From Oceanococcus sp. HetDA_MAG_MS8 (GTDB lineage: Bacteria; Pseudomonadota; Gammaproteobacteria; Nevskiales; Oceanococcaceae), in the NCBI GenBank assembly GCA_019192445.1, contig JAHCMK010000003.1, positions 62,001 through 126,000 of the forward strand: a DNA stretch of 64,000 nucleotides, in the 5' to 3' direction. Both the position numbers and the translations under genes were made by a program. Positions within the stretch are counted from its first letter, which is position 1, and each line of letters starts with the position of its first letter. Below, in pieces: positions 11,292 through 36,977 of the stretch. The notes below the pieces were generated by a model. The model was not told where the DNA came from and did no database searches. It saw only the letters and a list, made by a program, of their open reading frames with translations.

Positions 11292-11855
11292 GATTGGGTG
11301 TCGCAGACTACCCAGTCCTCGCGCTTATGTTCATCGTAAGCGGAGCGGCGGCGTTTAGCTTGTGCGCTTGCTTGAGTGGCGCGCCCGGCAGGCTTCGGAG
11401 GGCATAAAGGGACGCAACTGCATTTCACCCCAAGAGCACCCGTACACCGTTAATACACGTGATTCCTTCATTCTCTGCGAGCTTGCCGGCGGACGCAGCG
11501 TCACTTAGCGTCAATTTTTCTTACACAAGGTCGCTCGTGGTGTTTTGTGCGATTCGCACAAAACGACTGCTGCTCTACTGATGAAAACGTGAGAAATGCG
11601 GTCTCAATTCTGTCCCCGGCGAACGAGAAAGAACCCGCAGGCTTGGTTTCGATGGCGACTTCTATCGTGGACTAGAATCCTACCGAGTCGGTGTCTTCAA
11701 AGCGAGATTTTCGATGCAGAAGCGGGTTACGAATCGAGCACGTGCGAAGCGCTTCTCATACTGCTTCGCAGCGTCAACCAAGCTCGCCAGCATAGACAGA
11801 ACCCGCGTTCTAGGCGACCCAACTAAGACCATCGTGCGCGCGTGCAGTGTGCTTG
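11292..11855. other. gene-poor boundary between chromosomal genes and the defence island
   Basis: About 560 bases separate the peroxidase gene from the end of the CBASS operon. Several short overlapping frames (for example 11596-11826, 11680-11874, 11714-12052) are open on both strands but none has a ribosome binding site or recognisable protein; they may be decayed gene remnants. The one striking element is the inverted repeat 11542-11564. No tRNA was seen. This stretch is the likely left edge of the accessory region. Confidence 0.4.
11542..11564. repeat. perfect 10-bp inverted repeat with 3-nt centre
   Basis: Arms GTTTTGTGCG (11542-11551) and CGCACAAAAC (11555-11564) flank ATT. It could be a hairpin or terminator for the upstream peroxidase gene, an operator, or a recombinase recognition core; the position at the edge of the mobile region makes the last possibility worth testing. 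Confidence 0.5.
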
Positions 11856-12323
11856 CTACAAGGGTCGGTAGCACTCCACTTTCCCGGACGCACTCGCCCG
11901 CGCCACGTACAAAGAAACCGTTCCGACGATTACAGCCACCACGGGCTGTTTATCAGCTCGAATCGCAGCGAGCCGTTGCCATTCTGTGTAGTCGATGTTT
12001 GAGGGACAGGGATCGCGCTCGGCATGTGTATGCCACTCGCCGAGGTACCTAATTTGCCCCCGGCTTCGCCGCCAGTGGGCTCCCGCAATCTGCGCGTGGC
12101 CGTGTGGTGCTCGCCGGAAGAATGCGCGGCAACGGCGGTCAGATGTTGTTGGAGTTGTGGCGTGAGTGATTGCAAGATGTGAGCCGTGAACTGTCCCTAG
12201 CAGGATGCCACCGGCTTCCAGATCCAGCGCCCGCAACTGTCGGTGCGTCTCGAAAACCCGACGAGCGAAAGTAGACAGATGAAGCAGTCGCCTGCCATCC
12301 ATCGACACCCAAGATTCGCTCAT
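11856..12323 (-). CDS. cap3: CBASS Cap3, JAB/JAMM isopeptidase
   Basis: 155-residue JAB/MPN metalloprotease. The JAMM set is complete: Glu36 (LEAGGILLG), His98 and His100 in EWHTH, Ser108 and Asp111 in PSNID (HxH-x7-SxxD), which bind the catalytic zinc. In type II CBASS, Cap3 removes the CD-NTase from targets to which Cap2 has conjugated it, limiting or resetting activation. The start ATG at 12323 forms an ATGA overlap with the Cap2 stop; an upstream ATG at 12338 is less likely. Last gene of the CBASS operon. Confidence 0.9.
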   Translation of the reverse strand: MSESWVSMDGRRLLHLSTFARRVFETHRQLRALDLEAGGILLGTVHGSHLAITHATTPTTSDRRCRAFFRRAPHGHAQIAGAHWRRSRGQIRYLGEWHTHAERDPCPSNIDYTEWQRLAAIRADKQPVVAVIVGTVSLYVARASASGKVECYRPL

Positions 12324-13951
12324 GTGCAGGCTGGGCAATGCGGATGGACCCCCAAATCTGCATCCTCAGTAGCGCTGGAATAACTAGGCTCTACGATTCG
12401 AGTTCTTAGCCGCGGCGAAGTCCGCCCATTGACCCAGTCAAGTGCCATGTCTGCGCCCAGCCCCGCAGCCTGCAGAGACACCGAGGCAGGAAATGGGACG
12501 TACAGATCTTCACAGCCTTGGCCCGCCCACGATATCGGCAGATCTTCCGAGACCGCAGGGTACTGACCCGTACGGTTGTACTCCCACAAGCAGCGACTAC
12601 ATGCAGCCGATTCCGTGTCACGCATGATCCCCCGCACGGCGGTGCCTGGACCTTCGATCCAGATCGAGAGAATCGGCGTGCCCCGCGGTTGAGCGTTCGT
12701 CAGCCAATGACCTACTGTGTCTTCCCCAGTCGCATCAACGATCAGATCAGTCGAACTGATCTGTGCTTCACGCACGTCCACCGGAACTGCCCGGACATGC
12801 GCATCTGGCATCAGGCGCTGAAGTGAATCGGACAGCGCCTCGGCCTTGGGGTGGAGCAGGCTAGAGAATCCAAGCTGGTGTCGCCCAAGATTCTGAGGCA
12901 GCAAGATCTCACAATCGACCAGCGTCAGTTCACCACGACCGCTGCCCGCACCAGCCTTGACGAGTAACTCTGCAAGGTAACCGCCGATCGTTCCGCAGCC
13001 CACGAGACAGATGCGCAGATCCCGAAGAGTTCTCTTGCCTGGGATGTTTCGCTCAGCAACATAGCGCTCGTCGAGCCGAAAAACGGTCAACGGAATCACC
13101 TTGGATTGCAGCAGAGCGCGCTGAGACTTGGCTACTCGTCTAGCAGGACTACCCTCTGTAGTTCGCGAAAAAAGTACGGCAAACGCATATGTGAGAGATG
13201 GGGACTCGACGAGCACGACGCTGCCCGGCTTTTTCGAAAGCATCCCCTCATTCAAGCGCTGCGAGATCTTTCTCCGACAAGCGCCGTCGAGGTGTGATTG
13301 CCACGAAAGGAGTTGGCCGACGGTGCGGGGCGGCCAAGCTTCTCGCATAGGCCTTGGTGCTGCGGATGTCTTGACCCGATAGACCGGAACCACCTGCTCC
13401 TGTACCCGCATCCCGCAGGGCTCGAGTTTCGCATTGGTCCTCGGCACATCGTCTGTCGCGCACCAATACGTTCGGTCGTTCAGTTTCATGGTGATCGCCT
13501 CTACCTTGCCCGTCTCCTCGGACTTTAGGTCTGCAAAGCAGATCGACTCTCCCCAATACGCATGAAACTCTTCCTCAAGGTCATCGACCATCTCACCAGA
13601 CAGCACTGATTCCAGCACTTGCTCCGCCCGAAGAATGCAAGCCAGTGTTTGACCGACGGGGTCAAACTGATCTAGCGAGACCTGCCGACCATTGAGGTAG
13701 CAAAGCCATCCTCCCGAAGAAACGTGAGGAAGAACCGCGGGTAACCCACTAGGCAGATCTGTCAGTCGAATGCGTGGCGGAGCAAAAAAAACCGGATCAA
13801 GCTCAATGATGCACTGGTGTGACGCAGCAGCCCCCGGAAGCCGAAGCACGCCTTGGGCTTTCGCCCATCCCGTGTCTGATCGACCGATGTAGCGAAATCC
13901 GCGCTCTGCCAGCGCATCCAAGACCTTGGTGACAGCAGAGTCTCCGCTCAC
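12320..13951 (-). CDS. cap2: CBASS Cap2, fused E2-E1 ubiquitin-transferase-like enzyme
   Basis: 543-residue two-domain enzyme. The N-terminal part (about 1-170) is E2-like, with candidate catalytic Cys84 in GGWLCYLNG. The C-terminal part (from about 300) is a ThiF/E1 adenylation domain with the nucleotide-binding loop [10 protein letters not shown] and [16 protein letters not shown]. Cysteines follow in [12 protein letters not shown] and [12 protein letters not shown], either of which could be the E1 thioester Cys. Cap2 adenylates the CD-NTase C-terminus and conjugates it to targets, priming signalling. The start is a GTG at 13951 that overlaps the CD-NTase stop (GTGA). The neighbouring CD-NTase ends in Gly, as expected for a Cap2 substrate. 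Confidence 0.92.
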
Positions 13952-15090
13952 CCTGCTTTGGAGTGACCAACCAGCTCGCTTGGTCCCGCCTGCGCCGGCG
14001 TCGCAGCGATTGTCGCGGCAACCGATACAACCCGCACGCGACTGGGGTCATTGGGAAACCTGGGACCGAGCTCACGGATAATCCAGTTGCAACCCTGGGT
14101 TGGGCTGCTCGACTGGATTGCCCCGCGCAGCAGCGATTCAAAATTCGTAAGCGCCTGCGCAGCCTCCTCTACTCCCTCGGGACCAAGCCGATCTGTCAGC
14201 GACTCTTTTTCGTCGGTGGGGTTGGAGACGCCGGATCGAAGCACTCTGGGGAGCTGCTCAATCACATCCAGCAGTGCGAGGTCGTCTCTCCGATCACGCT
14301 TCTCAAACGCCGATGCTGCTGCGACCATCAACAAGACAGACGACGGACCTCCCGCGACCCAGTGCCAATCACGAAAGGCTTTCAAGTAGCGCACTACTCT
14401 CCTAAGCTGCTCGCCTTTGGCGTCAACTTCAGCGAGGAACCAGTCTTTGATCGGCCTTGGATCAGACTCCTTCCAGTTCTCCCTCCGGTGTGCCAGCAAG
14501 ACCTTGTCGACTGGCAGCGCTGTCCAAGCGTCACGCTCTGCAAAGGCAACAGCTTCCTCAAGCGTGTCGTAGCCGTAGCGGTTGAAGGACAGCGACTTGA
14601 GAGTCTGAAACTCCGAATCCGGTATCGCGTAGAGGGGAACGTCAATGTGCGCACGCTCTGAAATCTCGATGCGAATACATGTTGACTTGCTTGAATCCAG
14701 CACCCAACCGTTCTCTTCGATCAGTGGCGCGAGCGCCGCCTCTGCTGCCGCGAAGAACACTGCTGAAGCGGTGCTTGGACGATTGGTTTGCGCGACGAAG
14801 CTGAGCGGCAGATAACACCCGTCGTCAAGGTCGCATTGCTGAGGTTGTCTAGCTGGCCCATTCAATGTCCGGTATGCCCACGACCCTTGAGTGAAAAACC
14901 TTGGCGCAGGGATGGATCCCTCATAGCCTTGCTCGCGAAGCACAGTGGCAAGCCGTGTACGAAGACATGCGCGCACCTGCGTCTTCGCGTCCGACAAGGT
15001 TTGTTTTTCGTCACGCGTCAGATCGAGACCCGCAAGCAGTGACCGCTCAGTTTTGTTTGTAGTGTGAAAAAGCGGGCTGAAATCAAGCAT
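13948..15090 (-). CDS. CBASS CD-NTase, DncV-like cyclic-dinucleotide synthase
   Basis: 380-residue nucleotidyltransferase of the cGAS/DncV-like superfamily. The fingerprint is intact: [12 protein letters not shown] (Gly69-Ser70 of the GS loop), [10 protein letters not shown] (Asp87 and Asp89), and a third metal ligand Asp150 in [11 protein letters not shown]. The spacing between second and third motifs is close to that in Vibrio DncV, and DDGxYLP is a clade-A feature, so 3'3'-cGAMP is the most likely product (inferred). On phage infection it would make the second messenger that activates the adjacent CapV. The C-terminus ends ...SKAG, compatible with Cap2-dependent conjugation. It follows CapV by 1 base and overlaps Cap2 by 4. 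Confidence 0.92.
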
Positions 15091-15091
15091 C

Positions 15092-16087
15092 TCAGTTACC
15101 CCCTGTACTTTTGTTTGGACCGTGGAAAAATTCTGGAACGTCGGCGCGGTGGTTCCGGAAGGGTTTGAAGGCTGGGTCGCCCAAAGCGCGCTGCGCGGCG
15201 TGTAGCCCCCGTGTTCTCAGCGTCTGTGTTGCCGCGGCACTAGCTCGGTCCAGTGCTTTGATATCTTTGCTTTGGTCAGGTGTGGCCTCGTCATCGATAC
15301 GGTAATAGTGAGAGCCAAGTAGCTGCCTCAACATGGAATCGACCGCTCCTTCCTGAGCGGAAATGACGAGATCAAACAAACTGCCGCGCCACCGCCCAAA
15401 CCCGCGGTCTAAGTTTGCGTTGCCTCGGATGGTTGCCCCGATTGTCATAGTCCCAATCGAGAGCACACGAACGGTGGTGGTTGTATTCGGCGCGATGAAA
15501 TGATTGACCTCATGCAAGCCGAACAAGCCTGGCGCGTTGGCTACGAGGCCGCCATCTGCAAACACGCCTCTCACGTTCTTCGAGAGCGGAAAGTAGACAG
15601 GTGCCGCAGTCGTTGCCATCGCAGCTTCCACGACAGGCATTCGGTAGTCGATCTCAAAGCTCTTGTGATGTGGCGTCTTGAATATCTGCCCACTGCCTTT
15701 CGAATAGTTCACCGCAGGCACAAGCACCCGATGCTGAAGGTCGCCGATTTTTGTGTTGCCGAACTGCTTCCGCAGCGCGGCTTTCAGCCCCGTGGAATCG
15801 TGCTTGGCGCAGAGCCAGAAACCGCAAATCCGCCGATACAGGCTGCGCGAGCCGAAAATTGCCGCTCCCTCATCCTCGAAAAGGCGCTGTAGTTCGACCG
15901 CAGGGATCTCCGCCGCCAACCCCATCGCCAACATCCCACCTACGGACGTGCCGCAGATTAGGTCGAAGTGCGAGGCGATCGGGCGACCCATCGCGGCTTC
16001 CAGTTCGGCCAGAACCGTCGCGGTGTACAGCCCGCGATAGCCGCCACCGGAAAGCGCGAGTACATGAAGTGTTGAGTCGGCACCCAT
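15092..16087 (-). CDS. capV: CBASS effector CapV, patatin-like phospholipase
   Basis: 331-residue patatin-family lipase, the effector of DncV-type CBASS. The oxyanion loop GGGYRG (14-19), nucleophile Ser48 in GTSVG, and catalytic Asp178 in FADGG form the Ser-Asp dyad. Bound cyclic dinucleotide activates CapV to degrade inner-membrane phospholipids and kill the infected cell. The frame is open to 16135, but ATG at 16087 is preceded by AGGGG and leaves the DUF2188 gene (stop 16092) intact. First of the four core CBASS genes and immediately downstream of DUF2188. Confidence 0.92.
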
Positions 16088-16091
16088 CGCG

Positions 16092-16325
16092 CTAGCCCCT
16101 AGGCGGGAAGGGGTCCGGGCCGTGACTATCAGCACCGCTGATGCGCCCGTTCTTGTTGTGTATCCGCAGCTCTGTTTTCTGATTGCGGCTTACAGCCCGA
16201 CCGCTGTCAATGGCCTCTTGCTTGGTGCCGTGATGGCTACTAGCGCGAGCTGCGCCTCCCCTTTTCACGTCCCAGCCTCCCGATGGATTGGGAACCACAT
16301 GATGGCTATTGCTTCGTTTCGGCAT
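16092..16325 (-). CDS. DUF2188-domain small protein at the head of the CBASS operon
   Basis: 77-residue basic protein matching the DUF2188 pattern: HHVVPNPSGGWDVKRGGAARA, then KQEAIDSGRAVSRNQKTELRIH and a terminal GADSHGPDPFPPRG. Family members are small and of unknown function, sometimes linked to mobile DNA. It ends 4 bases before the capV start, so it is the first gene of the CBASS transcript and is divergent from the XRE/ImmA pair. Whether it takes part in CBASS is unknown. Confidence 0.8.
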   Translation of the reverse strand: MPKRSNSHHVVPNPSGGWDVKRGGAARASSHHGTKQEAIDSGRAVSRNQKTELRIHNKNGRISGADSHGPDPFPPRG

Positions 16326-16445: not shown

Positions 16446-16769
16446 ATGCGGGTAAATGCTCTTGGACGCAAGATCAAGGAATTGCGCAAGGCGAGCGAGC
16501 TGACGTTGGATCAACTGGCTGAGCGATCAGAGTGCAGCAAGAGCTATATCTGGGAACTTGAAAACCGAAACCCGCCCAGACCGTCTGCCGACAAGCTCTC
16601 GAAGATTGCCAGGCAACTTGGTACGACGCTGGACTACCTACTGGATGATGACGGCCAAATCAACCAGGAAGACGCAGCGGATACGCAGTTTTTCCGGGAG
16701 TATCAGCAAATGCCGGCGGAGACCAAAGAGAAGTTCCGCAAGATGGTCGAACTGTGGGGCAAGGAATAG
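16446..16769 (+). CDS. XRE-family repressor, probable CapH
   Basis: 107-residue protein with an N-terminal helix-turn-helix (KIKELRKASELTLDQLAERSECSKSYIWELE, residues about 8-38) and a helical C-terminal part (ETKEKFRKMVELWGKE). It is encoded divergently from the CBASS operon and 3 bases upstream of an ImmA/IrrE metallopeptidase. This arrangement matches CapH/CapP, in which CapH represses CBASS and is cleaved by CapP when DNA damage is sensed. The CapH assignment rests on context; the fold call is firm. Confidence 0.8.
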   Translation: MRVNALGRKIKELRKASELTLDQLAERSECSKSYIWELENRNPPRPSADKLSKIARQLGTTLDYLLDDDGQINQEDAADTQFFREYQQMPAETKEKFRKMVELWGKE

Positions 16770-16772
16770 CTA

Positions 16773-17627
16773 GTGGAGCAAAAGCGCCCCAAGCGATGGG
16801 CGAATGATCTCACCTTGCTGCTAAATGCCCGCGACGGTTCGGAGCGGTTTCCCGTTGATGTCCGGCAACTAGCGTTGGATTACAGTGGCCAGGTATTTCC
16901 GGAAGATCCAATCAGCTTGATCAAGGGTGCTGAGCTTCCGGGGTTTGAGGGTGCGTTGCAGCGAGCTCCTGACAGCGAGCTTGGTTGGGGAATTTTCTAC
17001 AACAATGAGATCAGTCAATCGCCAGGGAGGATCAACTTCACGCTCGCCCATGAGTTTGGGCACTACTTAGTGCATCGGCTAAGTCTTCCGGACGGGATTC
17101 AATGTGATGCCGAAGATATGGTGCGTTGGGGCAGCGCGTATCAGGTCATGGAGCATGAGGCGAACGATTTCGCGGCGACACTTCTCATGCCTCTCGACGA
17201 CTTCCGGCGGCAAATTGACGACACAACGCGTCCGACGCTGGGCGATCTCAGCAGATGTGCTTCCAGGTACAACGTGTCCTTGATCGCGGCGACGCTTCGG
17301 TGGCTTCAATACACCAGGAAGCGAGCCCTGCTTGTGAAATCCTCCGATGGCTTCGTTCAGTGGGCGCGATCAAGTACCCGAGCATTCAAGACCGGTGCCT
17401 ACATCAAGACAGTCGGCCGCCCGCCAATCGCGGTGCCAATCACCTCCCCTGCTGCCGATCCCGACTGCCCCGATGGAACTGGTCATGTGGCGTCGCATCC
17501 GGAGAATTCCTGGCTTCCAGAGCCATGTGTTGAAGAATCGTTCGCATCGCAGCGTTATGACTTCCGCCTAAGCCTTTTGCAGCTAGAAGATGACCTGCGT
17601 TACGTCGAGGGCTTCCGGGAAGGCTGA
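16773..17627 (+). CDS. ImmA/IrrE-family zinc metallopeptidase, probable CapP
   Basis: 284-residue protein. The zinc motif HEFGH (His93, Glu94, His97) sits in FTLAHEFGHYLVH; MEHEANDFAATLLMP downstream supplies the third, Glu, ligand. This is the ImmA/IrrE layout. A Cys-containing C-terminal region (residues 185-284) could be the sensory part. The start is a GTG at 16773, 3 bases after the XRE stop. In CapP systems the peptidase is stimulated by single-stranded DNA and cleaves CapH to relieve CBASS repression; that role is inferred here from gene order. Confidence 0.82.
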   Translation: MEQKRPKRWANDLTLLLNARDGSERFPVDVRQLALDYSGQVFPEDPISLIKGAELPGFEGALQRAPDSELGWGIFYNNEISQSPGRINFTLAHEFGHYLVHRLSLPDGIQCDAEDMVRWGSAYQVMEHEANDFAATLLMPLDDFRRQIDDTTRPTLGDLSRCASRYNVSLIAATLRWLQYTRKRALLVKSSDGFVQWARSSTRAFKTGAYIKTVGRPPIAVPITSPAADPDCPDGTGHVASHPENSWLPEPCVEESFASQRYDFRLSLLQLEDDLRYVEGFREG

Positions 17628-17839: not shown

Positions 17840-18355
17840 ATGGAAGAAGGCATCCCAAAGCTGAGAATCGCCCAGGAACAGCGGCGAGTTCTGGGCCTGA
17901 AGCTAATCCGCCCCCAGGCAACGCAACTCCGCATCACCGATGCCGCTCGCTTCGTCGTCAAGGCTGGCACGTATTCCGGCGGCTTCGAGATTGAGGAGGT
18001 TGAAACGGTCTTTGCGCTGCGCCCACCGATTGTCGTCCCCTCGAAACACGACGGTTTCGAGTATGACGTGATCGCCAACTTTGAAGGCTTGGTGTGGTTC
18101 CGCACCCTGTCACCGCTAGTACAAAGTCGCGTGTCACGCATAAACTGCCTCCGGATTGAGGGCAGCACGATGCCACGAGAGAACTGGCCTGCAATCGGCA
18201 CGTGGTTCCTCGAATACTTGTTCGGAAAAATGTCGACTCGCACGGAGCGGGCTGCTCGCAAAGCCGTACGACACTCCCGATTCCGAAAGTTAGAGCCGCT
18301 TGCAAAACTCGAAGTAGCACTGGAGCCTTTGACCCGAGATACGCGAGATGACTAG
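17840..18355 (+). CDS. unknown 171-aa protein, first gene of the recombinase module
   Basis: 171-residue protein without a recognised domain. The N-terminal half is beta-rich with aromatic patches (YSGGFEIEEVETVFALRPP, LVWFRTLSP), and the C-terminus is strongly basic (TRTERAARKAVRHSRFRK), suggesting nucleic-acid binding. It overlaps the next gene by 8 bases, and that gene overlaps the third, so the three are very likely one operon. 212 bases without a gene separate it from the CapP stop. Possibly an accessory factor for the two large recombinase-like proteins. Confidence 0.7.
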   Translation: MEEGIPKLRIAQEQRRVLGLKLIRPQATQLRITDAARFVVKAGTYSGGFEIEEVETVFALRPPIVVPSKHDGFEYDVIANFEGLVWFRTLSPLVQSRVSRINCLRIEGSTMPRENWPAIGTWFLEYLFGKMSTRTERAARKAVRHSRFRKLEPLAKLEVALEPLTRDTRDD

Positions 18356-21074
18356 CGCAACACCCCTGCGCTGGAGCGGTGGAGAATCGAGCGTCCTCAT
18401 GCCCTTGGACGTACTGTGCAAAGAGATCGCACAGTCCAACTCGATGACCGAGGCCGATGCGCGGACGCTAGTTGCAATTCTTGGCATGCCGCCGAGCGGT
18501 GAGTACCTGATCGATGGACTCCGTCGCACTATAGAGGTGCTGAATCTGGCGGAGGCATCCTTCGATGCGTGCTTCTCTGTGACTACGACGCGGATTGATC
18601 GCGCCGATCAGCTGAGGCGGCAGATCAACGTGATGCTGGAGTACCTGGAAGCTCTCCCGCTGCCCGCCGACGACCCAAAGAAGCTACGCATGGCAAGGGA
18701 TTCGGAAGATGCGCGACATCCCCTGCGCGGATATTGCCTGTCCCGGATGCACTTCTGGTGTCTTCTGTTTTACGAGCTGAACCCGGCGTGGGATGACGGT
18801 GCAACTGGACCGGCTTATCAGCAAATCGCGGCGGAAGTCGCGGTCCATATCCTTGCAGCCAACTCTCAGGTCAAACCGGACAGCTACTTCTCATTTTGCC
18901 GCGAACACTGGAAGACAGGCGAGTGGCCAGCAAGCTCGCCGTTGAAGCTGGTCCAGGAATCGTCCGGCGACACGCTGGCGAGCCGCGTCGCAAATGCGGC
19001 AGTTGCCGTTCGGCAACTCGCACACCCCGAGTTGGGGCTCGCCGACGCTGAACACGATGGCGACTTCGATCCTGCCGATGTGCCGACCGACGAACCAGAA
19101 TCTGACGGGGGTTCGACAGAGGGCGATTCAGCAATCGATGAATCCCCGGATGAAGACTACAAACAAGTTCGCTTGGCGATCTCCCCGGCCAGCAGCCCGG
19201 ATGATTTCGGCGCTTTGGTTGTGGCTGCCGAATCCTCAGGTATCTGGTCCCAGATGGCCGCTCGCAGAGTGGCGCAGCTCAGCCGTCTGCTGGAGGCGGT
19301 TCGTCCATTCCATCATCGTGCGAACTCTCGGGCTGCAAAGATACGTGCGGGCTCCCGGAACGCACCACGGGGTACAGCCCGTCGCGCACTGCGAGACGGT
19401 TACGTACGACTCCCCGGTTCCGACTATGTCGAGCAGCCATCCGGAGACGCGGGCGGCGGAAGCGTTATGGGCCGGCTCCCGCCGGGCTCCGATGACCCGA
19501 ATGACCCTAGATACGACGACCGCTGGATGCCCACCGATGACCGTATTGAAGGCGAGCTACTCGAATCGATCTTGGCAGAGTCGGAAGGTCGATCCAAGAC
19601 CAAGCGACCAGCTACTGCAGGCTCTCAAGCACACCAGGCGCGGTGGGCAGCCGAGCAGGCGCGGCGATACCGCCTACTTCTACCGTTCCGAATTGACTCG
19701 CTGCACGCCGTTGACGGAGCCGCGTTGTTGCGAGCGATCACTGAGGGGCAGATACCAGGCGCCTTCTTCGACGCTAATCCATCAGAGAGCGAGAACGACC
19801 TGCGCGAACGCCTGAGCGAGGCGCTTGGTCCGTGGCTTTGCTCCCTTGCTCTTGGCCGGGCATACAAATACGCGTTCGAAGTTCGGATTGTGCTGGATCA
19901 AGCTGAGGCAGAAATTCTCGAGAAGACCATCTGTTTCTGTCGCTCCGAAGCGTGTTGGAGCATTCCGTTCGAGCCTCCGGCTTGGCGCGACCTGGAAATC
20001 ACTGCGATTGAGCGGCCGGTCAACAAACGCCTTGTACTGCCGGACCTCGTCGGATTCTCGAATTTCTTGAGATCAAACCCGTCCGCGCTTGACGGTAGTC
20101 AGCTTGCTGCGAAGAAGCTAACCCAGAAACGCCGGAAGCTGATTGCTGATTGGATCGAGGCCGTCACCCCGGGTTGCGCGGTATCGATTGCTGGCGTGGA
20201 ACGCTCGCTGTTCGAGCGCCTTGTCATCGCGACCTCTGGCGACATCGGTCTTGCCTCATTGATCACTGGCCGAAAACATGCGCACTCTGGATCCGTCGCT
20301 CACTACGCACACTACACCGCTGACGAGGTGCAGACAGCGTATGCGAATGCATTCGAGCCGCTGGGTGTCAATCCGTCCAGCGTCGAATTGCTGCCAGGCA
20401 GCGCAGACAAAGGCTACGGTGCCAAGCGTGTGCCGACCCGAACAGCGGTTTCCACGTTGCTCCAAGGGTTGCGCAACTGCGATTCTGATGATCTGTACGC
20501 CAAGCACAATCAGTACACGCTGTACACGTACTCGAGCATGCACTTGGGCATCGCATTGCGGTCTATCGTCGACCCGCGCTTCAAGTCGGTGTCCGAACTC
20601 CTAGGTGCGCTGGTGAGCTGGACGGATAAGGCGCGGACAGACTATCACCGGCGAGTATCGATTCTGTGCGATGCCATCGTCTCGCACCTTCGCCACTACG
20701 CTGAGTACTTGAACTTGGCGCGGGCTACGGATTTCTTGCCAAGACGACCGAACAAACTGGCGAACGCAGCGCTTCTATACTTCATCGACGGAAATTTCGA
20801 ACCCCTCCGTCCAATACACTTCGAACGGGCAACCGCAGCCTATTACCCGCTTGAGCCGTACTCTCTGCGTAGGTTTATGCGCACTGAACTGGCTGCACAC
20901 CCCTCCGTGGAAGGGTGTGATCTTGATGCGTTCTTCGGTCATTGGTTTGATCGAGCCTCACCCCATGACCCATTCTCATGCTATGCGTTGCAACGCATGA
21001 GGGTACTCGCGAGCGGCCCTGTTCCGGATGTGCTGGCGAGTGTCGGTTTTCAGCCGATGACGTTTCAATGGTAG
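18348..21074 (+). CDS. 908-aa tyrosine-recombinase-like protein
   Basis: Very large protein with no signal peptide or membrane segment. The N-terminal part is helical; an acidic linker spans about residues 235-270 (DFDPADVPTDEPESDGG region). The C-terminal 200 residues carry patches like a tyrosine-recombinase catalytic domain: Arg738 in LGIALRSIVDPRF, the box YSLRRFMRTEL with Arg841/Arg845, His865 in FFGHWF, and Tyr879 in PFSCYALQRM as candidate nucleophile. The His-to-Tyr distance (14) is longer than usual. An earlier GRKHAHSGSVAHYAHY patch near residue 640 resembles a second recombinase-type signature. It overlaps the 171-aa gene by 8 bases and the next recombinase by 7. Family uncertain; catalytic activity is inference. 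Confidence 0.72.
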   Translation: MTSATPLRWSGGESSVLMPLDVLCKEIAQSNSMTEADARTLVAILGMPPSGEYLIDGLRRTIEVLNLAEASFDACFSVTTTRIDRADQLRRQINVMLEYLEALPLPADDPKKLRMARDSEDARHPLRGYCLSRMHFWCLLFYELNPAWDDGATGPAYQQIAAEVAVHILAANSQVKPDSYFSFCREHWKTGEWPASSPLKLVQESSGDTLASRVANAAVAVRQLAHPELGLADAEHDGDFDPADVPTDEPESDGGSTEGDSAIDESPDEDYKQVRLAISPASSPDDFGALVVAAESSGIWSQMAARRVAQLSRLLEAVRPFHHRANSRAAKIRAGSRNAPRGTARRALRDGYVRLPGSDYVEQPSGDAGGGSVMGRLPPGSDDPNDPRYDDRWMPTDDRIEGELLESILAESEGRSKTKRPATAGSQAHQARWAAEQARRYRLLLPFRIDSLHAVDGAALLRAITEGQIPGAFFDANPSESENDLRERLSEALGPWLCSLALGRAYKYAFEVRIVLDQAEAEILEKTICFCRSEACWSIPFEPPAWRDLEITAIERPVNKRLVLPDLVGFSNFLRSNPSALDGSQLAAKKLTQKRRKLIADWIEAVTPGCAVSIAGVERSLFERLVIATSGDIGLASLITGRKHAHSGSVAHYAHYTADEVQTAYANAFEPLGVNPSSVELLPGSADKGYGAKRVPTRTAVSTLLQGLRNCDSDDLYAKHNQYTLYTYSSMHLGIALRSIVDPRFKSVSELLGALVSWTDKARTDYHRRVSILCDAIVSHLRHYAEYLNLARATDFLPRRPNKLANAALLYFIDGNFEPLRPIHFERATAAYYPLEPYSLRRFMRTELAAHPSVEGCDLDAFFGHWFDRASPHDPFSCYALQRMRVLASGPVPDVLASVGFQPMTFQW

Positions 21075-24073
21075 GCGAGATCGCACCGATCTGGTCTACC
21101 CCGCCAGATGACGCATCGGACTTGGCACTTGTGGCCCACAGAGAGCTTCTTGGCGTTATGCACCAGCTGTCGAAAACGGAGCCATTCGTTCTCGACCAGC
21201 CTGAGAAGCTGTCTGCTGACCGCGTGATGCAGCGTGCGATACCGCTGGTGCTCGACCGCGTAGCGCCCACTGTTCCGAGCCCGCTGTTGCTCAATCTGCT
21301 CGAAAGGCGGCTTGCGCAGCTGAAACCAGATTCCCGGTCTTCGGCAGACAAGGCCAAGACCTACTTGCCTGCTTTTGGCAGTAAAAACCGGGTCAGCAAG
21401 GATTTCGGAAAGACACAGGAGGATCTCGCTGACCTGATCGATGCTTTCAACTACGCCGTGCGTCAGCGTCGGCACGTTTGCAAAACTGCGACGGCTGAGT
21501 CAAAGGCCGGCTACTTTCTCCTCGCGCTGATGCTCCGCTCGCGTTTGTGTGGCGAGAACACCTTAGCCGCGGCCCTCAGAAAACTGGCAGAAAAACCCCA
21601 TGCCGAGTCTGGCAGTGGGTGGGCCTGGATGGATGTTGTGGTGGATGCAAACAGCCATGCGAGCACACATGTACGGCGCATCTTTGTCGATCCCACAACG
21701 CTTTCGCTGTGGGCTATCGCCGCCCGCAAGGCTGCTGATTTGCCCGAGCCGCAAGGCAGCACTCGCCACAGGAACCCGAAGAAGCATTTCCGGCGGCTGG
21801 TGAAGCGGTGCGTCGGCGCTGCACTCAACGACATCTTTGGCAGCGGCAGCCGTAGCCCCCGGGGCTGGACCGTGAACCGCATTTGCAAGGCTGTTGCCGA
21901 GTGGGTGCATATCAATACCTGCCCGATCCTGGCCACGTATGCGGCAGGAGAACTCGGCTGCACCTCCCTGACCCTGGATACATGGCTGCGACTGATTGGC
22001 TGCCATTTTTCTGAGCCGACGCCAACTGATGCGCGGGCGGCACCTGATCTTGACCAGACAAGGCACTCGACAAGCGACGCGAGCGGCCAAACAGAAGACG
22101 ACTGGTTGGACGCTGCACTGTCTGGCGAGCTCGATGAGGGCGGATTCATCGGCGAACTCAATCGTGTCATGCGCGCGCCGATGGATGAGTGGGACTCAGG
22201 ACTGACGAAGCTGCTCCGGTCGTCTCAGAAAGGCGGGAAGGCTCGACTACGGACTGAGGTGTTGATCGTCCGGTGGATTCAATGGCTGGCAAGCGGTCGA
22301 GCAGACAGCCAGAATCCACTTCGCGCAGGCACGATACGGTTATACAAAGGGCAGCTCGCGAATCGGATTCTGCAAGCGTTTCCTGACGACCTGTCTGGCA
22401 TCGATGAGGATTCACTGACCAGCATCTACGAGGCCGTTGGAGAGGCCACGACAAGCCCGCAGAACAAGGACCGTGTTCTCGGGACGCTACGGCAATTCCA
22501 TCAGTTCGTCCGGCAAGAGCTTGGGCTTGACCTGCCTGATGTCCAAATCGAAGGATTCAGCGCTGGCGGCTATGCGGTCAGTGCCCGAATCGTGACCCAT
22601 GCTGAAGCTGATGCCGTTCTCTTCGAGCTTGAGAGCGGCGAGCGTACCCGCAAGCTCAACGCGAACGATTCTCTGAACGCTCGTGCGTTGGTCATCTTGG
22701 CCTTCTTTCGATCGCTGCGCTTTCAGGAGGCCGTTGGCTCCCAACGACGAGATTCCAGAGGGCACGAATTCGTTGTGCGCGACAATCATGTGCGGACGAC
22801 AAAAACTCGCAATGGCGTCAGGCGCCTGCCATTGCTTGATTTAGATGAGCGCTACCAGGTGTTGCTTCGCGAACATTCCGAGATCGCTGCTACGGCGGCA
22901 GGCTTCCCGTTCTGCAAAGGCAAAACCGAGCCCTCGGAAAAGTCGGTTAAAGAGCATCGCTGCCGGCAAGACCTGAAGGTCGCTCTCAACAAAATTGTCG
23001 GTGACCCGCACCTGCATCCCCACAACCTCAGACATAGCTTTGGGAGCTTGACGGAGTTCGGAGCGCTGACGGAAATCTTGAGATGGCGCAAGCTGAGCGT
23101 GCACGATCATCCATTTTTCTCAGACTGGATGGCGGATGCCTCAACCCGCGCCGCAGCGCTCATGCCTGAAATCAAAAGCCCCCTGCAAGGCGACGGCAGC
23201 GTCTGCGCAGCTATCTCGATGATGATGGGCCATGCGTCTGAGTCAACGACGTTCCAGCACTACATCCACACAATGGATCTCGTCTTATTTCTCGCGTGCG
23301 ATCAGACGTTTGAGCGGGTTGATCTGGCGGATAAGCAGCGGCATCCACGCTTCGCGGCAGGGGAGGCAGCACTGTTGACCGCAGCGATGGGGCTCTGCCC
23401 GACCACACGGGTCCAGACCGACGACCTCGAAGCCCTCCACAAGAGAATCGGGGCGCTTTCTGGCGGCAGGATGATAAACCACGAATCTGTCCGAGACAGC
23501 CGTTACGACCCAGCATTCACGTCCCGGCCGCTTGAGCACTTAACACTCGAGGGCTTGCGCGCCACAGACTCCGGGGCATCGGCCGAGACAGCGTACGATC
23601 AGCGTGGAGAGCCTACCGGTCAGGCGCAAATTGACTGTGCTCAATCGATGCTCGACCTAGTTCGAGATGCCTCAAGTGCCGAGGTGGAGAGCCGAGTGCG
23701 GATGTTGGACACCCTCGCTGCCGGCCTGCGGAAAAACAGTGATCTGTCATCGATGAAAATCAACGAAGCGAATGATTGGCTTGCGTCATTCGAGTCTGCC
23801 TTCGGCGAGACAGTCCAAGTCGATTTGAAGCATGTCTTCACACCAAACAGGGAGCGCAATAAGGTCCGAGAAACGATCTCGCCCAAAGACTTGCGGCGGC
23901 TTGCAAAGAAAGGTGCCCCAGGCGTGGTTTGGCTGCGCATCCGTGACCCTCGACCGGGGGCAGCGCCGGAGCGCAGCCGTCTTCAATCAACGGTGACTTG
24001 GTGCCTCAAGCGATTGCCGAGCTACGCTCGCGCTGAGCTGAGGAAGCTAGGGCAAGCGGATATGTTTGTTTGA
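21068..24073 (+). CDS. 1001-aa tyrosine-type site-specific recombinase
   Basis: Large recombinase whose catalytic domain sits in the middle (about residues 530-740). The tetrad is visible: Arg551 in RSLRFQEAV, HNLRHSFG with His652 and Arg655, His722 in MMMGHASESTTF and Tyr732 in QHYIHT. About 520 residues precede it and a 265-residue helical extension follows, making it two to three times the length of ordinary integrases. Residues about 430-540 look like a core-binding domain. Start ATG at 21068 overlaps the upstream stop (ATGGTAG); the longer frame from 20978 is not needed. With its two overlapping neighbours it resembles the idea of recombinase-in-trio or gamma-mobile-trio elements, but I could not confirm membership. 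Confidence 0.85.
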   Translation: MVGEIAPIWSTPPDDASDLALVAHRELLGVMHQLSKTEPFVLDQPEKLSADRVMQRAIPLVLDRVAPTVPSPLLLNLLERRLAQLKPDSRSSADKAKTYLPAFGSKNRVSKDFGKTQEDLADLIDAFNYAVRQRRHVCKTATAESKAGYFLLALMLRSRLCGENTLAAALRKLAEKPHAESGSGWAWMDVVVDANSHASTHVRRIFVDPTTLSLWAIAARKAADLPEPQGSTRHRNPKKHFRRLVKRCVGAALNDIFGSGSRSPRGWTVNRICKAVAEWVHINTCPILATYAAGELGCTSLTLDTWLRLIGCHFSEPTPTDARAAPDLDQTRHSTSDASGQTEDDWLDAALSGELDEGGFIGELNRVMRAPMDEWDSGLTKLLRSSQKGGKARLRTEVLIVRWIQWLASGRADSQNPLRAGTIRLYKGQLANRILQAFPDDLSGIDEDSLTSIYEAVGEATTSPQNKDRVLGTLRQFHQFVRQELGLDLPDVQIEGFSAGGYAVSARIVTHAEADAVLFELESGERTRKLNANDSLNARALVILAFFRSLRFQEAVGSQRRDSRGHEFVVRDNHVRTTKTRNGVRRLPLLDLDERYQVLLREHSEIAATAAGFPFCKGKTEPSEKSVKEHRCRQDLKVALNKIVGDPHLHPHNLRHSFGSLTEFGALTEILRWRKLSVHDHPFFSDWMADASTRAAALMPEIKSPLQGDGSVCAAISMMMGHASESTTFQHYIHTMDLVLFLACDQTFERVDLADKQRHPRFAAGEAALLTAAMGLCPTTRVQTDDLEALHKRIGALSGGRMINHESVRDSRYDPAFTSRPLEHLTLEGLRATDSGASAETAYDQRGEPTGQAQIDCAQSMLDLVRDASSAEVESRVRMLDTLAAGLRKNSDLSSMKINEANDWLASFESAFGETVQVDLKHVFTPNRERNKVRETISPKDLRRLAKKGAPGVVWLRIRDPRPGAAPERSRLQSTVTWCLKRLPSYARAELRKLGQADMFV

Positions 24074-27273: not shown

Positions 27274-28533
27274 CTAGGCATCCTCAGCCTCCTCGACGCC
27301 GCCGTGCATTGCAGCTGAAACGAAGCTATCGAAGGCGGACCCGTCACGCCGTGTGAGGTTGGGTACATAGCGCGAGTAGACGCGAAACAGCATCTCCGTC
27401 GTCGTGTGACCCAACTGCCGGGCGATCCACTCGGGTGCTTCGCCAGCAGCCAACCACAACGTCGCGCAGGTGTGGCGCATCTGATACGGCCGACGATCCT
27501 CGATGTCGAGATGCCGCAACAGGGGCTTCCAAACGCGGTTGACGAAGTTCTGGTTGTTCACGGGCCCGCCAGCACGTGTCGCAAAAACGTACTGGTCAGC
27601 AAATTGCCTGGGGTTGGCATCGAAACCTTCTGGCTTCATCTGCTCTAGCGCCTCGATCACGGGCTGCGCCAGGTCAATCTCACGCTGGGAACCATCCGTT
27701 TTGGTGTACTCCGTCCGGCCGTGGCTGTAGGTCTCCCGAACCAATAGTTGCCGGCGGTCAAAGTCGACGTGCCGCCACTTCAGCCCATGGACTTCGCCGG
27801 AGCGAAGCCCTGTGAGAAATCGCAGTGTGAGGTAAGGTCGATAGTCTTCCCGCGCAGCGTCCAGAATCTGGCGCATCTCCTCGACGGTAAACGGCTGAAT
27901 ATCCGTCTTGCGAACCTTCAGCCGCTTGACGGATGCACACGGATTCGGGGCACCGGTGATGAGCGATGCCTCTTCCATGATCATCCGGAGAATGCCGATG
28001 ACACGGTTCACGGTTGCCGGCTTGAGCTTGCGCTCGCTCTTCCCATTTCCACCGCAGGTCACGCGTTCTGCGTTCACCAAGTCCGCACGAAACGCGAGCA
28101 CCGCATCGCGATCAATCTGATCGACGGTCTGATCGCCGAATGCTGGCAACAGATGCCGATCGAGAATGGAGTCCACTGCAGTGCGATAGGAGTCCCGCCA
28201 CTCAACCTGCTTCTGGTGCTTCCACTTCTCAACCAGCTCAGAGAACAGCGGAGCAGGCTCTGTGTCGGCATGCCGTGATGCGACTTGGAGAGGGCTCCCA
28301 CCGCGCGATGGGGTATCAAAATCGCGTGCACGGCGGCTGTCAGGGAAGTAGCGGGCGTAGTCGAACACGCCCTCGACGATGTCTCCTTCGATGCGCGCCA
28401 GGACCTTCTCCATGCGCTTGCGATTGGTCGCGTTGTCAGGAAGCCGTGTGTACTCGCGACACCGCGTCTTCCGATAGCGAAAATCGAAGTACAGCATCCC
28501 CTCTCGGACTGCAATGCTACCCATGGCAAACAC
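27274..28533 (-). CDS. tyrosine-family integrase
   Basis: 419-residue phage/ICE integrase. The N-terminus has a DUF3596/Arm-type DNA-binding domain (FDFRYRKTRCREYTRLP), a core-binding domain spans about 95-200, and the catalytic domain follows with Arg in LTGLRSGEVHGLKW, the box YQMRHTCATLW, HTTTEM in QLGHTTTEM and the Tyr nucleophile in FRVYSRY. Start ATG at 28533 overlaps the excisionase end by 17 bases; ATG four codons later is possible. With the excisionase this is a complete integration/excision pair, independent of the large recombinase module. Confidence 0.93.
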   Translation of the reverse strand: MFAMGSIAVREGMLYFDFRYRKTRCREYTRLPDNATNRKRMEKVLARIEGDIVEGVFDYARYFPDSRRARDFDTPSRGGSPLQVASRHADTEPAPLFSELVEKWKHQKQVEWRDSYRTAVDSILDRHLLPAFGDQTVDQIDRDAVLAFRADLVNAERVTCGGNGKSERKLKPATVNRVIGILRMIMEEASLITGAPNPCASVKRLKVRKTDIQPFTVEEMRQILDAAREDYRPYLTLRFLTGLRSGEVHGLKWRHVDFDRRQLLVRETYSHGRTEYTKTDGSQREIDLAQPVIEALEQMKPEGFDANPRQFADQYVFATRAGGPVNNQNFVNRVWKPLLRHLDIEDRRPYQMRHTCATLWLAAGEAPEWIARQLGHTTTEMLFRVYSRYVPNLTRRDGSAFDSFVSAAMHGGVEEAEDA

Positions 28534-30967: not shown

Positions 30968-31369
30968 ATGGCCATCGAACTGCTCGTCGATAACCGCAAA
31001 CTGCCCAGCCGCCTCATCGACGTCCTGAAGCGTGTGCCTAAGCCCGGATTCGTCTGCGAGTCCTTTGCGGACTCCATCCGGAAGGTAGTGCAACGCCTGC
31101 GCCACGGTGACGACCTTCTGGTGCCGATGTTCGGCGGGTACTGGCTGCCCGGAGAGCTCGCGGTAACGCCTCCGCGTGAGTCAGCGTGGTGGGCCTGTAA
31201 GAGCAATATGGAATTCAACACGATTGTCAGCCCAGACTTGATCCAAGCGCTACGCAACCCAGGAGCTCTGGATCGGGACGACGAGGTCAACGAGAAGCGC
31301 TTCGCCGACTGGAAGGAATATGCCTACCGGCTGGGGCCGGCGGCGCGGGGCCCCAATGAACATCCGTGA
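30968..31369 (+). CDS. unknown 133-aa protein, first gene of the Wadjet operon
   Basis: 133 residues from ATG 30968 (142 from ATG 30941, which lies inside the operator and so is less likely). Sequence features: IELLVDNRKLPSRLIDVLKRVPKPGFVCESF, then LVPMFGGYWLPGEL and a basic-acidic C-terminus. No known domain. It overlaps the jetA start by 14 bases and is separated from the WYL gene by the operator, so it is co-expressed with jetABCD. Standard Wadjet type I operons as I know them have four genes, so this would be an added component. Confidence 0.65.
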   Translation: MAIELLVDNRKLPSRLIDVLKRVPKPGFVCESFADSIRKVVQRLRHGDDLLVPMFGGYWLPGELAVTPPRESAWWACKSNMEFNTIVSPDLIQALRNPGALDRDDEVNEKRFADWKEYAYRLGPAARGPNEHP

Positions 31370-32822
31370 GCGCGCCAACCGTTACGAGCGGCTGAGCAAG
31401 CATGCGGCGTGGACGCTGCTGAAGGCCTCGAAGTCCTCCTACACCCTGGCTTTCCTCGAGTCCCTGTTCGTCGATAACTCGGAAGTGCCGGTGGCTCAAG
31501 CGCATACCGCGCTGAACGCCTACCTGGCCGATTGGCAGTCCGGGTGGGCCGACACAGACGTCAACGCCAAGGTGCTGCTCCGGCAGTGGACTGCGGCCGG
31601 GTACATTCGGGATCAGGATGGCCACTACGTAATGACCGACGCCTGCGCGACGGCGATTTCGTTTGCCAGCGGATTGGATCGGCGAGAGATCGCGGCCACC
31701 GCCACGCACCTGAAGATCATGCAGGACTCCGTGGACGACCTGCTCTACGCGCTCTCCGAGGATCAGAGCGAGCGCAGTGACATCGTGCTGGCCAAGATGG
31801 AAGAACTGCGGGCCGAGCACGAGCGCATCATGGCGGGAGACTTCGAGCTGCCGAGCGACCAGGAGCAGAAAGAGGCCGTCCGCCACATCCTGGCGGCTGC
31901 CACGCGGCTGGCGGGCGACTTCAGGCTGCTGGATGACCAGTACCGGGAGCGTAGTCGCCTGCTGTTCGAGCAGATCAACGCCAGCGACGATGGGCGCGGC
32001 GCGGTGATCGAGCAGGCACTGGACAACGAGGACGCTATCAAGCGGACGCCAGCGGGAATGGCCTTCGAAGGCTTCTATGACCTGCTCGCCAACTCCCATT
32101 TGCGCCAGGAGTTCCAGGCCAAGCTCAAGCGCCTGTTGGAATCACCCGCGGCACGCTTCCTCGAACCCGGCGAGAGGCGTTTTCTCAAACGCCTGACATC
32201 CGAGTTGATGGCCGAGAGTGGGCGGGTTCGCAGCAGGCGCAAGCGCATGGGTGCTGCGCTGTCGGGCTACGTGCAGACGGCCAACCGAGCAGACCGCGTG
32301 GAGATCGATCGGATGCTCGCTGAGGTCAAACGTCTTGCGCTGGAAATCGCCAAGGGCGTGGATGTGTCGCCGCACCACAAGATGCGGTCGGTAGCCATCA
32401 ACACTGGCAGTCTGGCGCTGTACTCGCCGGACGCGTTGCGTCTGGCAGCGCCCAAGCACGTGAACTTTGACGTCGAGGTTGTCACCCACGAGGTCGATGA
32501 CGACCTAAGCGACGAGCAGATCGAGCGCATGTCGACCTTCCAAGTACTAGCCCTGGCCAAGCGTATGGCCGAGTTCATCGCGTCCCAGTCCGGACAGACG
32601 GCAACCGTTGGCGATTACGCCAAGGCGTCTCTCATCACCGGCGGGCTGGAAGAGCTGATTGGGACGTTCCGGGTGGCCAAGGCAGTCGGCGGGCTGGACC
32701 TGCAGATGACCGAGGAGATTGAGTTCTGGACCAAGGCCGGCGAGCGCTGCCGCGCGACAGTGCCGGCGATCCTCATGGGAACGGACCGGTTCCCGGATGA
32801 CCTACGTGAGCTGAACCTATGA
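31356..32822 (+). CDS. jetA: Wadjet JetA (DUF3375, kleisin-like)
   Basis: 488-residue DUF3375 protein, the MksF/kleisin-like subunit of the Wadjet SMC complex. It is largely helical, with an acidic coiled region (EELRAEHERIMAGDFELPSDQEQ) and LAKRMAEFIASQSGQTATVGDYAKASLITGGLEELIG near the C-terminus. JetA bridges the JetC SMC arms. The ATG at 31356 is preferred over the frame start at 31320. It overlaps the upstream unknown gene by 14 bases and jetB by 4. Confidence 0.9.
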   Translation: MNIRERANRYERLSKHAAWTLLKASKSSYTLAFLESLFVDNSEVPVAQAHTALNAYLADWQSGWADTDVNAKVLLRQWTAAGYIRDQDGHYVMTDACATAISFASGLDRREIAATATHLKIMQDSVDDLLYALSEDQSERSDIVLAKMEELRAEHERIMAGDFELPSDQEQKEAVRHILAAATRLAGDFRLLDDQYRERSRLLFEQINASDDGRGAVIEQALDNEDAIKRTPAGMAFEGFYDLLANSHLRQEFQAKLKRLLESPAARFLEPGERRFLKRLTSELMAESGRVRSRRKRMGAALSGYVQTANRADRVEIDRMLAEVKRLALEIAKGVDVSPHHKMRSVAINTGSLALYSPDALRLAAPKHVNFDVEVVTHEVDDDLSDEQIERMSTFQVLALAKRMAEFIASQSGQTATVGDYAKASLITGGLEELIGTFRVAKAVGGLDLQMTEEIEFWTKAGERCRATVPAILMGTDRFPDDLRELNL

Positions 32823-33535
32823 GTGGTGATGACCTGACGACGCCTGTGACCGTTGATGCGGTCCCGCCCGAGCAGAACCGCGGGACCACAGACGTTGAAG
32901 CCGCCGGCGTGAGTCTGGGCGACTCCGCTGAGATCACGTTACTGCGAAAGGCGCAGCAGTGGTTACTGGGTCACGGTGTGGTCTACCACTCGAAGCACCC
33001 GGAGTTGTACCGTGCATTGACCGGCAGCCAGGCCTCCGTACGCACCCTGCTCAACGAGCTGGGTCTCTCCATGACGGTGGAGGAGACGGTGGGCGTGGTG
33101 ATGCTGCGCTTGCCGACCCCCGACGATGACGAGGACGAGGATGCCCACCCCCTGGTTCGGCGCTCGACCCTGTCGCTGACCGATTCGCTGACGGCTGTCG
33201 TGCTGCGTGACTACTACCGAGAGCGCCAGGCCCAGCAGGACATCACCATCCAGGTCGACTTAGAGACGCTGCAACAGCGCCTGCAGCCGTTCATGGCCAT
33301 CTACGACAGCAGTGAGGCGCTGTTCAACAAGAAGGTCGGCGCGGCGGTCGATCGATTCAACAAGTGGCACATTCTGAACAAGGTTCGCGGTCAGGATGAC
33401 GTCTACGAGATCACGCCCGTCATCGCCATCGTAGTGGACGCCCGGTGGCTGACCGGGCTGGTGAGCGAGTTCCGGGAGCTCGCCGAGAAGAAAGCGGGCG
33501 CGAACGCCGTCAATGAGGAGGCAGCCGATGGCTGA
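32819..33535 (+). CDS. jetB: Wadjet JetB (DUF4194, MksE-like)
   Basis: 238-residue DUF4194 protein, counterpart of the MksE/KITE subunit that binds the kleisin. Recognisable stretches are LLRKAQQWLLGHGVVYHSKHPELYRAL, LRDYYRERQAQQDITIQVDLETLQQRL and FNKWHILNKVRG, in the tandem winged-helix layout of KITE proteins. It overlaps jetA by 4 bases and jetC by 8. Confidence 0.88.
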   Translation: MSGDDLTTPVTVDAVPPEQNRGTTDVEAAGVSLGDSAEITLLRKAQQWLLGHGVVYHSKHPELYRALTGSQASVRTLLNELGLSMTVEETVGVVMLRLPTPDDDEDEDAHPLVRRSTLSLTDSLTAVVLRDYYRERQAQQDITIQVDLETLQQRLQPFMAIYDSSEALFNKKVGAAVDRFNKWHILNKVRGQDDVYEITPVIAIVVDARWLTGLVSEFRELAEKKAGANAVNEEAADG

Positions 33536-36500: not shown

Positions 36501-36977
36501 ATGGAGTTTTCGTCCAACAAGACCGACATCCAGACAGGCGAGGTGCTGTCCTCACGCGGCAGTACGGGAGGCTTGTCGGGTGGCCAGCGCGAGAGCTTCA
36601 GCAGCTTCATCGTAGCCGCCAGCCTGGCGTACGCGTTGACGCCGGCCGGGGGCAAGGCCCCGCGGATGTCGACGGTATTTCTGGATGAGGCGTTCTCACG
36701 CACGTCGACGGCCATGATCAAGCCCGTCATCGCCGTCTTCCGTGCTCTGCGACTGCACATGAATCTGCTGACGCCCTACAAGGAACTCGACACCAGTGAG
36801 CAGGCGACTCGGGCCGTGGTTCTAGTCGAGATGAACGACCGGACAAAGACGAGCTCTCTCAAGCACATCACATGGGAGAAATTCCTAGAGGTTCGGCACG
36901 GCAAGGGGATCGAGCGGCTGCCGGATGGTGAAGTTCGTTGGAGGAAAGAAGGTGGAGCCGATGAAGCTGCCGGATGA
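33528..36977 (+). CDS. jetC: Wadjet JetC (SMC-like ATPase)
   Basis: 1149-residue SMC-type ATPase. Walker A GDTGAGKSTLVDSM lies near residue 60; long coiled-coil segments (about 270-430 and 660-900) flank a central hinge-like region (about 450-640). The C-terminal head has the signature LSGGQRESFSSFIVAASL and Walker B STVFLDEAFSRTS. In Wadjet, JetABC extrude DNA loops on small circular DNA and deliver it to JetD for cleavage. The ATG at 33528 follows GAGGAG (33515-33520). Closest role: MksB-type SMC in defence. Confidence 0.93.
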   Translation: MADSTLGVADPTELQSYTLEDLVPDLQYGLTALSVHNWGSFSGGWSAPIDPQGTLICGDTGAGKSTLVDSMQVLLLKPTQTRFNTAASSEDAKDRSLVTYVRGAYDSERDGARTIPKMMRTGATYSGVSARYAGTDGTDVTLMALFWIAGPGMAQSDVKRLYVLARRKLELPEVLEAGVSNSAGIDRSWLEARYGNDTSVQFFQKWDDYEAAYHTALGLENPKAPALIVKAMGLKEVRDLTALIRDFVLEPGEAAAVAIDAVQEFRELQGIYQEMAVAEQQEAKLAPLEGYKERIEALQDRLDALTAQLGAVPAYVSGQALELVRGRLAKLRDDLQRQKGIVADAKAEVDALEVRAEEAQSTYLLSGGNDIAELEGKIARLDEQIGGASAAAKDCMSQAAGLGVELAGDGLTKEAFTEIRARAAAIATDADALRQQAADEFGDKYAKSQNLAEQKASVDEELAQIVGKGRTSNIPEAFQSIRDQLVGAFALDPETLVFLGEMVQVKPQDAPLRGAIERALGKSRLDLLVPESAVGSINGWVNARHLGVDFRFHGVREDVAPNRDFKRDGYMRLLDWRDHPYREAAKRQLISYDKSIKATPQEVAETANAMTAEGLMSYRAGTYDKRDSKRIDDEDNWYTGHNGAVRRDLLARRSCGLDEALKSANSDRDAAHRAQTAIGHRIQIMQVLSELTWDRVDAGSLIAQKRERQSDIDYLKNNDVDLAAAKAAVDTAKQELRANREVLQDSRSAQTRIESAIEQDEGREARFAETAGSEPIDAEIAEALRAHEMDVTWEKLEDAGGVERRLRDAVAAESQGESDKLSDASVAACRVMATYKEKWPAHAGDLGDNLASMEGYLGLLEEIRRDRLPKIKDRFTEKLNHNALQSLEAVRASIEQQQEDIEQRIDDVNHVLCRVEFEPGTRLNVIPTAQRFVEVDDFEAKVDAVRAVSLSEDPKKRYAALEVAMNHLATFTDPSRLSNLGSLRLLDARYRMEFSSNKTDIQTGEVLSSRGSTGGLSGGQRESFSSFIVAASLAYALTPAGGKAPRMSTVFLDEAFSRTSTAMIKPVIAVFRALRLHMNLLTPYKELDTSEQATRAVVLVEMNDRTKTSSLKHITWEKFLEVRHGKGIERLPDGEVRWRKEGGADEAAG

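Follow-up and report, generated by a model that had tools for sequence, protein, structure and literature searches.

A candidate tRNA-Arg(CCG) integration module that pairs a giant tyrosine recombinase with a recombinase-like partner

What is the function of a tight operon encoding two giant recombinase-like proteins next to a CBASS defence operon? Three genes at 17840-24073 of the 64,000-nucleotide stretch of Oceanococcus sp. DNA that we analysed (the window) raise this question. A preliminary description had read them as one operon that might belong to a known class, such as gamma-mobile-trio or RIT, or to a new one, and that might mobilise the adjacent defence genes. We confirmed the three open reading frames (171, 908 and 1001 aa) and their overlaps of 8 bp between the first two and 7 bp between the last two, which support a single tight operon; the 1001-aa frame is open back to 20978, and its start at 21068 agrees with homologues. 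From its sequence, this trio is best read as a small protein, one active tyrosine recombinase and a recombinase-like partner in which the catalytic tyrosine is not conserved. We put the probability that the trio is the integration/excision module of a mobile island, acting at a CTCCGAAGG-type core of tRNA-Arg(CCG), at about two in three.

Table 1 Features of the island and their coordinates (window positions unless stated otherwise).
Feature	Position	Strand	Description or basis
attL, trio-side island end	11377..11408	-	last 16 nt of tRNA-Arg(CCG) joined to CCTCCGAAG and TTTATGC
CBASS operon in island	11856..16135	-	JAB (Cap3), E1/E2 (Cap2), DncV-like cyclase, patatin (CapV)
HTH regulator and M78-type metallopeptidase, between CBASS and trio	16446..17627	+	family matches
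Small protein of trio	17840..18355	+	171 aa; ORF call; weak homologues at this position in L030 and L035
Putative 908-aa pseudo-recombinase	18348..21074	+	tyrosine-recombinase fold ~694-908; residue alignment, profiles, fold matches
Predicted 1001-aa active tyrosine recombinase	21068..24073	+	R551, K579, H652, R655, H722, Y732; family match and alignment
Arm-type tyrosine integrase in island, the rival integrase	27274..28533	-	family match
Wadjet-like operon in island	31320..38124	+	DUF3375 protein, SbcC-like ATPase and neighbours
attR, far island end	contig C3 ~147.85-148.01 kb, outside the window		split tRNA-Arg 5' half and intact copy

One active recombinase and a recombinase-like partner

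Within the trio, the 1001-aa protein alone matches a known family: PHROG integrase phrog_1 at E 3.8e-19 and PF00589 at E 2.6e-5, the latter falling slightly short of the curated cut-off. The 908- and 171-aa proteins yielded nothing of note in Pfam, NCBIfam or PHROGs. We aligned some 20 members of each large-protein family, fused chains included. R551, K579, R655, H722 and Y732 are kept throughout the ~20 homologues of the 1001-aa protein, and H652 is replaced (by Q) in one of them. The catalytic tetrad already proposed for this protein (R551, H652/R655, H722 and Y732) is thus correct, and K579 belongs to it too. On these matches and residues, the 1001-aa protein is a tyrosine recombinase.

The residues of the 908-aa family point to a different kind of protein. 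R738, K761, R841 and the pair G864-H865 are invariant, and R845 is arginine in most members only. The position of Y879 is occupied by tyrosine in the eight nearest relatives and one fused protein, and elsewhere by F, L, M, A, S, I or D. The motif first suggested for this protein therefore stands for R738, R841 and G864-H865; R845 and Y879, by contrast, do not hold across the family, and K761 had been missed. The unusually long His-Tyr gap reported along with that motif is real (14 versus the usual ~10); because Y879 is not conserved outside near relatives, however, the gap is better taken to reflect a missing nucleophile at the usual position. One could argue that both large proteins are catalytic, with Y879 serving as the nucleophile of the close family on an unusually long loop, and its invariance among the nearest relatives fits this; the variety of residues at that position in most other members and the 14-residue spacing from the histidine make such a reading quite improbable. 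The 908-aa protein is better regarded as a pseudo-recombinase, which probably has no nucleophile of its own, than as another active enzyme.

A tyrosine-recombinase fold had been postulated for both large proteins, and family matches, profiles and PDB fold matches (with fold E-values above 0.001) agree with it. Modelling the 908-aa protein at full length gave a poor result (pLDDT 52.6), with weak structure matches of which 5 of 24 were tyrosine recombinases. A model of the C-terminal 349 residues, built on a shallow alignment, had a pTM of 0.57 and showed pLDDT >70 for most helices of the catalytic-like part (~694-908). Searching the PDB with this model returned tyrosine recombinases as all 14 best matches, including XerA (probability 1.00), XerH, Cre, and phage and MRSA integrases, at a best E of 5.8e-3 and none below 0.001. 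Of the seven chains that a profile search of PDB sequences with the 908-aa family found at E<=10, six are tyrosine recombinases, and PF00589 was matched directly by 2 of 20 family members. Alignment of the two family profiles paired R738 with R551, K761 with K579 and R841 with R655, scoring 35.3, whereas none of 60 block shuffles exceeded 24.3 and reversed profiles scored ~14. Together, models and profiles suggest that the 908-aa protein very probably has a tyrosine-recombinase fold.

Relatives of the trio and known multi-recombinase systems

Operons homologous to the trio occur in other genomes of the same order, in six named records, among them MAGs of Solimonas and of a member of the Burkholderiaceae, in another nine genomes out of a class sample of 369, and on Acinetobacter plasmids. 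The small-pseudo-active order recurs in some 20 other loci of Gammaproteobacteria and Burkholderiaceae, which bears out the expectation that the homologues would be adjacent to one another: the 908-type gene lies directly 5' of the 1001-type gene wherever the DNA is long enough, and the small gene usually comes first. In six loci (L020, L025, L027, L054, L061 and L085), the large proteins form a single chain of 1473-1913 aa. This recurrent order and these fusions argue that the grouping is more than chance. A phage search and scans of viral contigs revealed no relative of the trio. Among 17 trio loci, neighbouring genes include CRISPR I-F, type I restriction, DrmD, AbiE and BREX genes, for which we claim no enrichment.

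The fused form on Acinetobacter plasmids bears on whether the trio serves mobility at all, since it could instead serve its own replicon through dimer resolution or plasmid maintenance. In 41 records, matches to this form span 80% or more of the query, and its left end, ~150 bp upstream of the small gene, is shared in at least 8 different left contexts. In the three left junctions that we compared with an uninterrupted target, the targets were a hypothetical gene, an IS5-type element and ISAba14. Trios do often lie near rep and par genes on these plasmids, as a maintenance role would have it; however, this left end is found next to unrelated sequences, among them a gene and interrupted IS elements, and chromosomal copies sit at split tRNA genes, so that a role confined to the replicon is highly improbable. 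Right ends and complete empty sites were not found in the Acinetobacter plasmids, which are rearranged and in which the second half of the target does not adjoin the element; the mobility of the plasmid copies is read from the left end only. Further split trios occur on Acinetobacter plasmids at L083 1-5859 (NZ_CP053219, A. baumannii, human source), L086 15033-21166 and L096 4854-10826, where they are annotated as a site-specific integrase and two hypothetical proteins. A BREX cluster on an Acinetobacter plasmid also has a fused-type element nearby (L020 6899-12301; L095).

Of the classes that had been considered for the trio, gamma-mobile-trio (GMT) reportedly consists of GmtY-GmtZ-GmtX, as Mahata et al. 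2024 are said to describe it. Like the trio, it combines three genes, tyrosine recombinase(s) and a small protein with islands carrying defence genes. None of the NCBIfam GMT models NF040693, NF047926 and NF040692 matched the window trio at E<=1, whereas a control GMT locus from a genome of the class (L052) matched the GmtY, GmtZ and GmtX models above their cut-offs, which rules out GMT membership. The gene orders differ as well: recombinase (441 aa), large (908 aa) and small (200 aa) in the control, versus small, large pseudo and large active in the trio. Comparison with single GMT sequences by hhalign had no power, as the active recombinase failed too.

Four other systems were compared by gene content as described. 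Tn554 has an overlapping three-gene recombinase operon, as the trio does, but its TnpA and TnpB both carry the RHRY motif and its small TnpC comes last, while the trio has one complete motif and its small gene first. RIT elements, the other class suggested at the outset, likewise consist of overlapping genes, in their case three recombinases of 315-410 aa with catalytic motifs in ~3.5 kb (PMC3414803); the trio shares the overlaps, but with one active enzyme instead of three and sizes of 171, 908 and 1001 aa it does not fit this class. The strand-biased circularizing integrative elements (SE; intA-tfp-intB-srap) resemble it in having an overlapping operon at one end, a small protein and a pseudo-partner, Tfp, described as lacking the RHRY motif (PMC10214605). 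They have four genes, two active recombinases and the small gene last, however, rather than three genes, one active recombinase and the small gene first. SE are further characterised by strand-biased copy-out movement, a 6-bp footprint and the lack of an empty site. GInt elements (ginABCD) encode three integrases and a small protein and, in the studied cases, target an ABC transporter gene (PMC5385486). They share with the trio an operon at one end of a cargo island (so placed in genomes G063 and G049, and with 6.4 kb between end and trio in the window), one recombinase-like protein with an incomplete motif and a small protein, and are set apart by their description, with four genes and three integrases compared with three genes, one complete motif and tRNA-Arg. 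The trio thus appears to match none of the known recombinase-trio families tested, the last four as judged from gene content.

Island ends at tRNA-Arg(CCG) and the candidate integrator

The island in which the trio lies extends for ~74.6 kb from 11377 to a far end that consists of a tRNA-Arg(CCG) 5' half and an intact copy. Near C3:148.0 kb, two tRNA-Arg 5' parts occur 83 bp apart, and the inner of them is part of the intact tRNA. The attL end motif occurs once in the 116 kb examined, and the 16-mer is present there and in the intact tRNA only. No repeats were found between the two flanks of the trio in the window, and a search of seven relatives for an empty site found none. Mobilisation of the adjacent defence genes, raised in the preliminary description, is plausible in that a single island bounded by tRNA sequence contains both the operon and CBASS; that the trio moves this island is what we infer. 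The island also carries a further operon that we take to be a Wadjet-like system.

Relatives showed similar ends. In L030, L031, L033 and L035, an opposite-strand tRNA 3' half cut at CTCCGAAGG lies upstream of the small gene, and the element end at these halves reads TATGC-N-CTCCGAAG, with the TATGC part differing in L031; including L028, the conserved end motif adjoins the trio in five relatives. At ~14970-14995 of L028, the CTCCGAAGG end motif adjoins a terminator-like hairpin (GCCCTCCGAAGGGC followed by T-rich DNA) and not a tRNA. Across the trio loci, tRNA 3' ends lie <=1.5 kb upstream in 7 of 17, all on the opposite strand, compared with 7 in 264 kb elsewhere; four of these seven loci are those in which the pattern was first seen, and L024, L025 (fused) and L055 are independent.

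The contigs of G063 and G049 each have one intact tRNA-Arg(CCG) with a separate 5' half, ending in TCCGAAGG, just outside it, and the distance from this 5' half to the trio-side end is 51.9 kb and 29.3 kb, respectively. The acceptor stems of the outer halves in G049 match each other (GCGCTCG/CGAGCGC) and differ from that of the inner copy (GCGCCCG/CGGGCGC), so the halves derive from one interrupted gene. The 5' half of the far-end intact tRNA closely matches the outer half of the same genome, and this copy may belong to the island or to the host. The incomplete 5' halves lie outside the intact copy at G063:C54 19795-19962, G049:C25 24930-25100 and G000:C3 147847-148006, and G000 and G063 have a common GAGTCATTG..GCGATAA stretch between the 5' half and the intact tRNA-Arg(CCG).

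An ordinary arm-type integrase lies in the same island as the trio and might itself have integrated the island at tRNA-Arg, in which case the trio would be a passenger, or an element nested close to the far end. Integrases of this kind usually leave one island end with an intact tRNA and the opposite end with a 3' part, a pattern that the island fits. Homologues of this integrase occur close to tRNA-Arg sequence in two genomes, at ~0.8 kb from the intact copy in G049 and, in G063, ~0.9 kb past the 3' part; homologues also neighbour the trio in L053, L056 and L057. Also counting against integration by the trio are the 6.4 kb between it and attL in the window, the loss of nucleotides that follow the core in the tRNA 3' parts of G000, G063 and G049, and the failure to find an empty site in the relatives or a right end in the plasmids. 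The arm-type integrase of the window is itself ~57 kb from the intact tRNA, though, and an extra 5' half outside an intact tRNA is unexpected from simple 3'-end integration. Moreover, the DNA examined of L028, L031 and L035 contains no arm-type homologue, yet the same end motif adjoins their trios. We consider integration by the arm-type enzyme the less likely reading, although it is the main rival, and the closeness of the trio to the conserved end in L028, L030, L031, L033 and L035 suggests that the trio probably integrated the island.

Two arm-type integrase homologues are present in G063 (C54 26482-27924 and 72667-73911), one inside and one just outside the trio island, possibly reflecting adjacent or nested islands at one tRNA-Arg site. 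In the window, an HD-domain protein with a weak match to MobH/TraI_2 relaxases (26009-26932) adjoins the arm-type integrase and is possibly a remnant of a conjugative element.

Proposed mechanism and significance

In the mechanism that we propose for the trio, the 1001-aa protein would cut and rejoin DNA. The 908-aa protein, with the same fold and the phosphate-binding residues kept but no conserved nucleophile, would probably bind the attachment sites and complete a mixed complex with its active partner; such a complex would account for how tightly the genes are coupled and for the fusions found in nature. A probable role of the small protein is to assist DNA binding or to set direction. Recombination would occur at the CTCCGAAGG-type core, here in the anticodon loop of tRNA-Arg(CCG), so that the tRNA 3' part stays on the trio side of the island and the 5' half at its far end, where the intact tRNA-Arg(CCG) beside it would keep tRNA function.

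Tentatively, the trio may represent an undescribed integration class, in which an obligate pair of active and nucleophile-less giant recombinases, sometimes fused, inserts islands into the tRNA-Arg(CCG) anticodon loop and similar CTCCGAAGG sites, with an intact replacement tRNA copy at the far end. With it, the multi-component tyrosine-recombinase elements gain a lineage that appears to be unnamed. The 908-aa family, which has no Pfam or NCBIfam model, provides a marker for islands, including elements on plasmids of clinical Acinetobacter, and some islands so marked carry CBASS, Wadjet-like, BREX or CRISPR I-F systems. Finally, the natural fusions of active and nucleophile-less proteins open to direct testing the old question of why elements of this kind require more than one recombinase, and an assay would have defined ends in the split tRNA-Arg genes.
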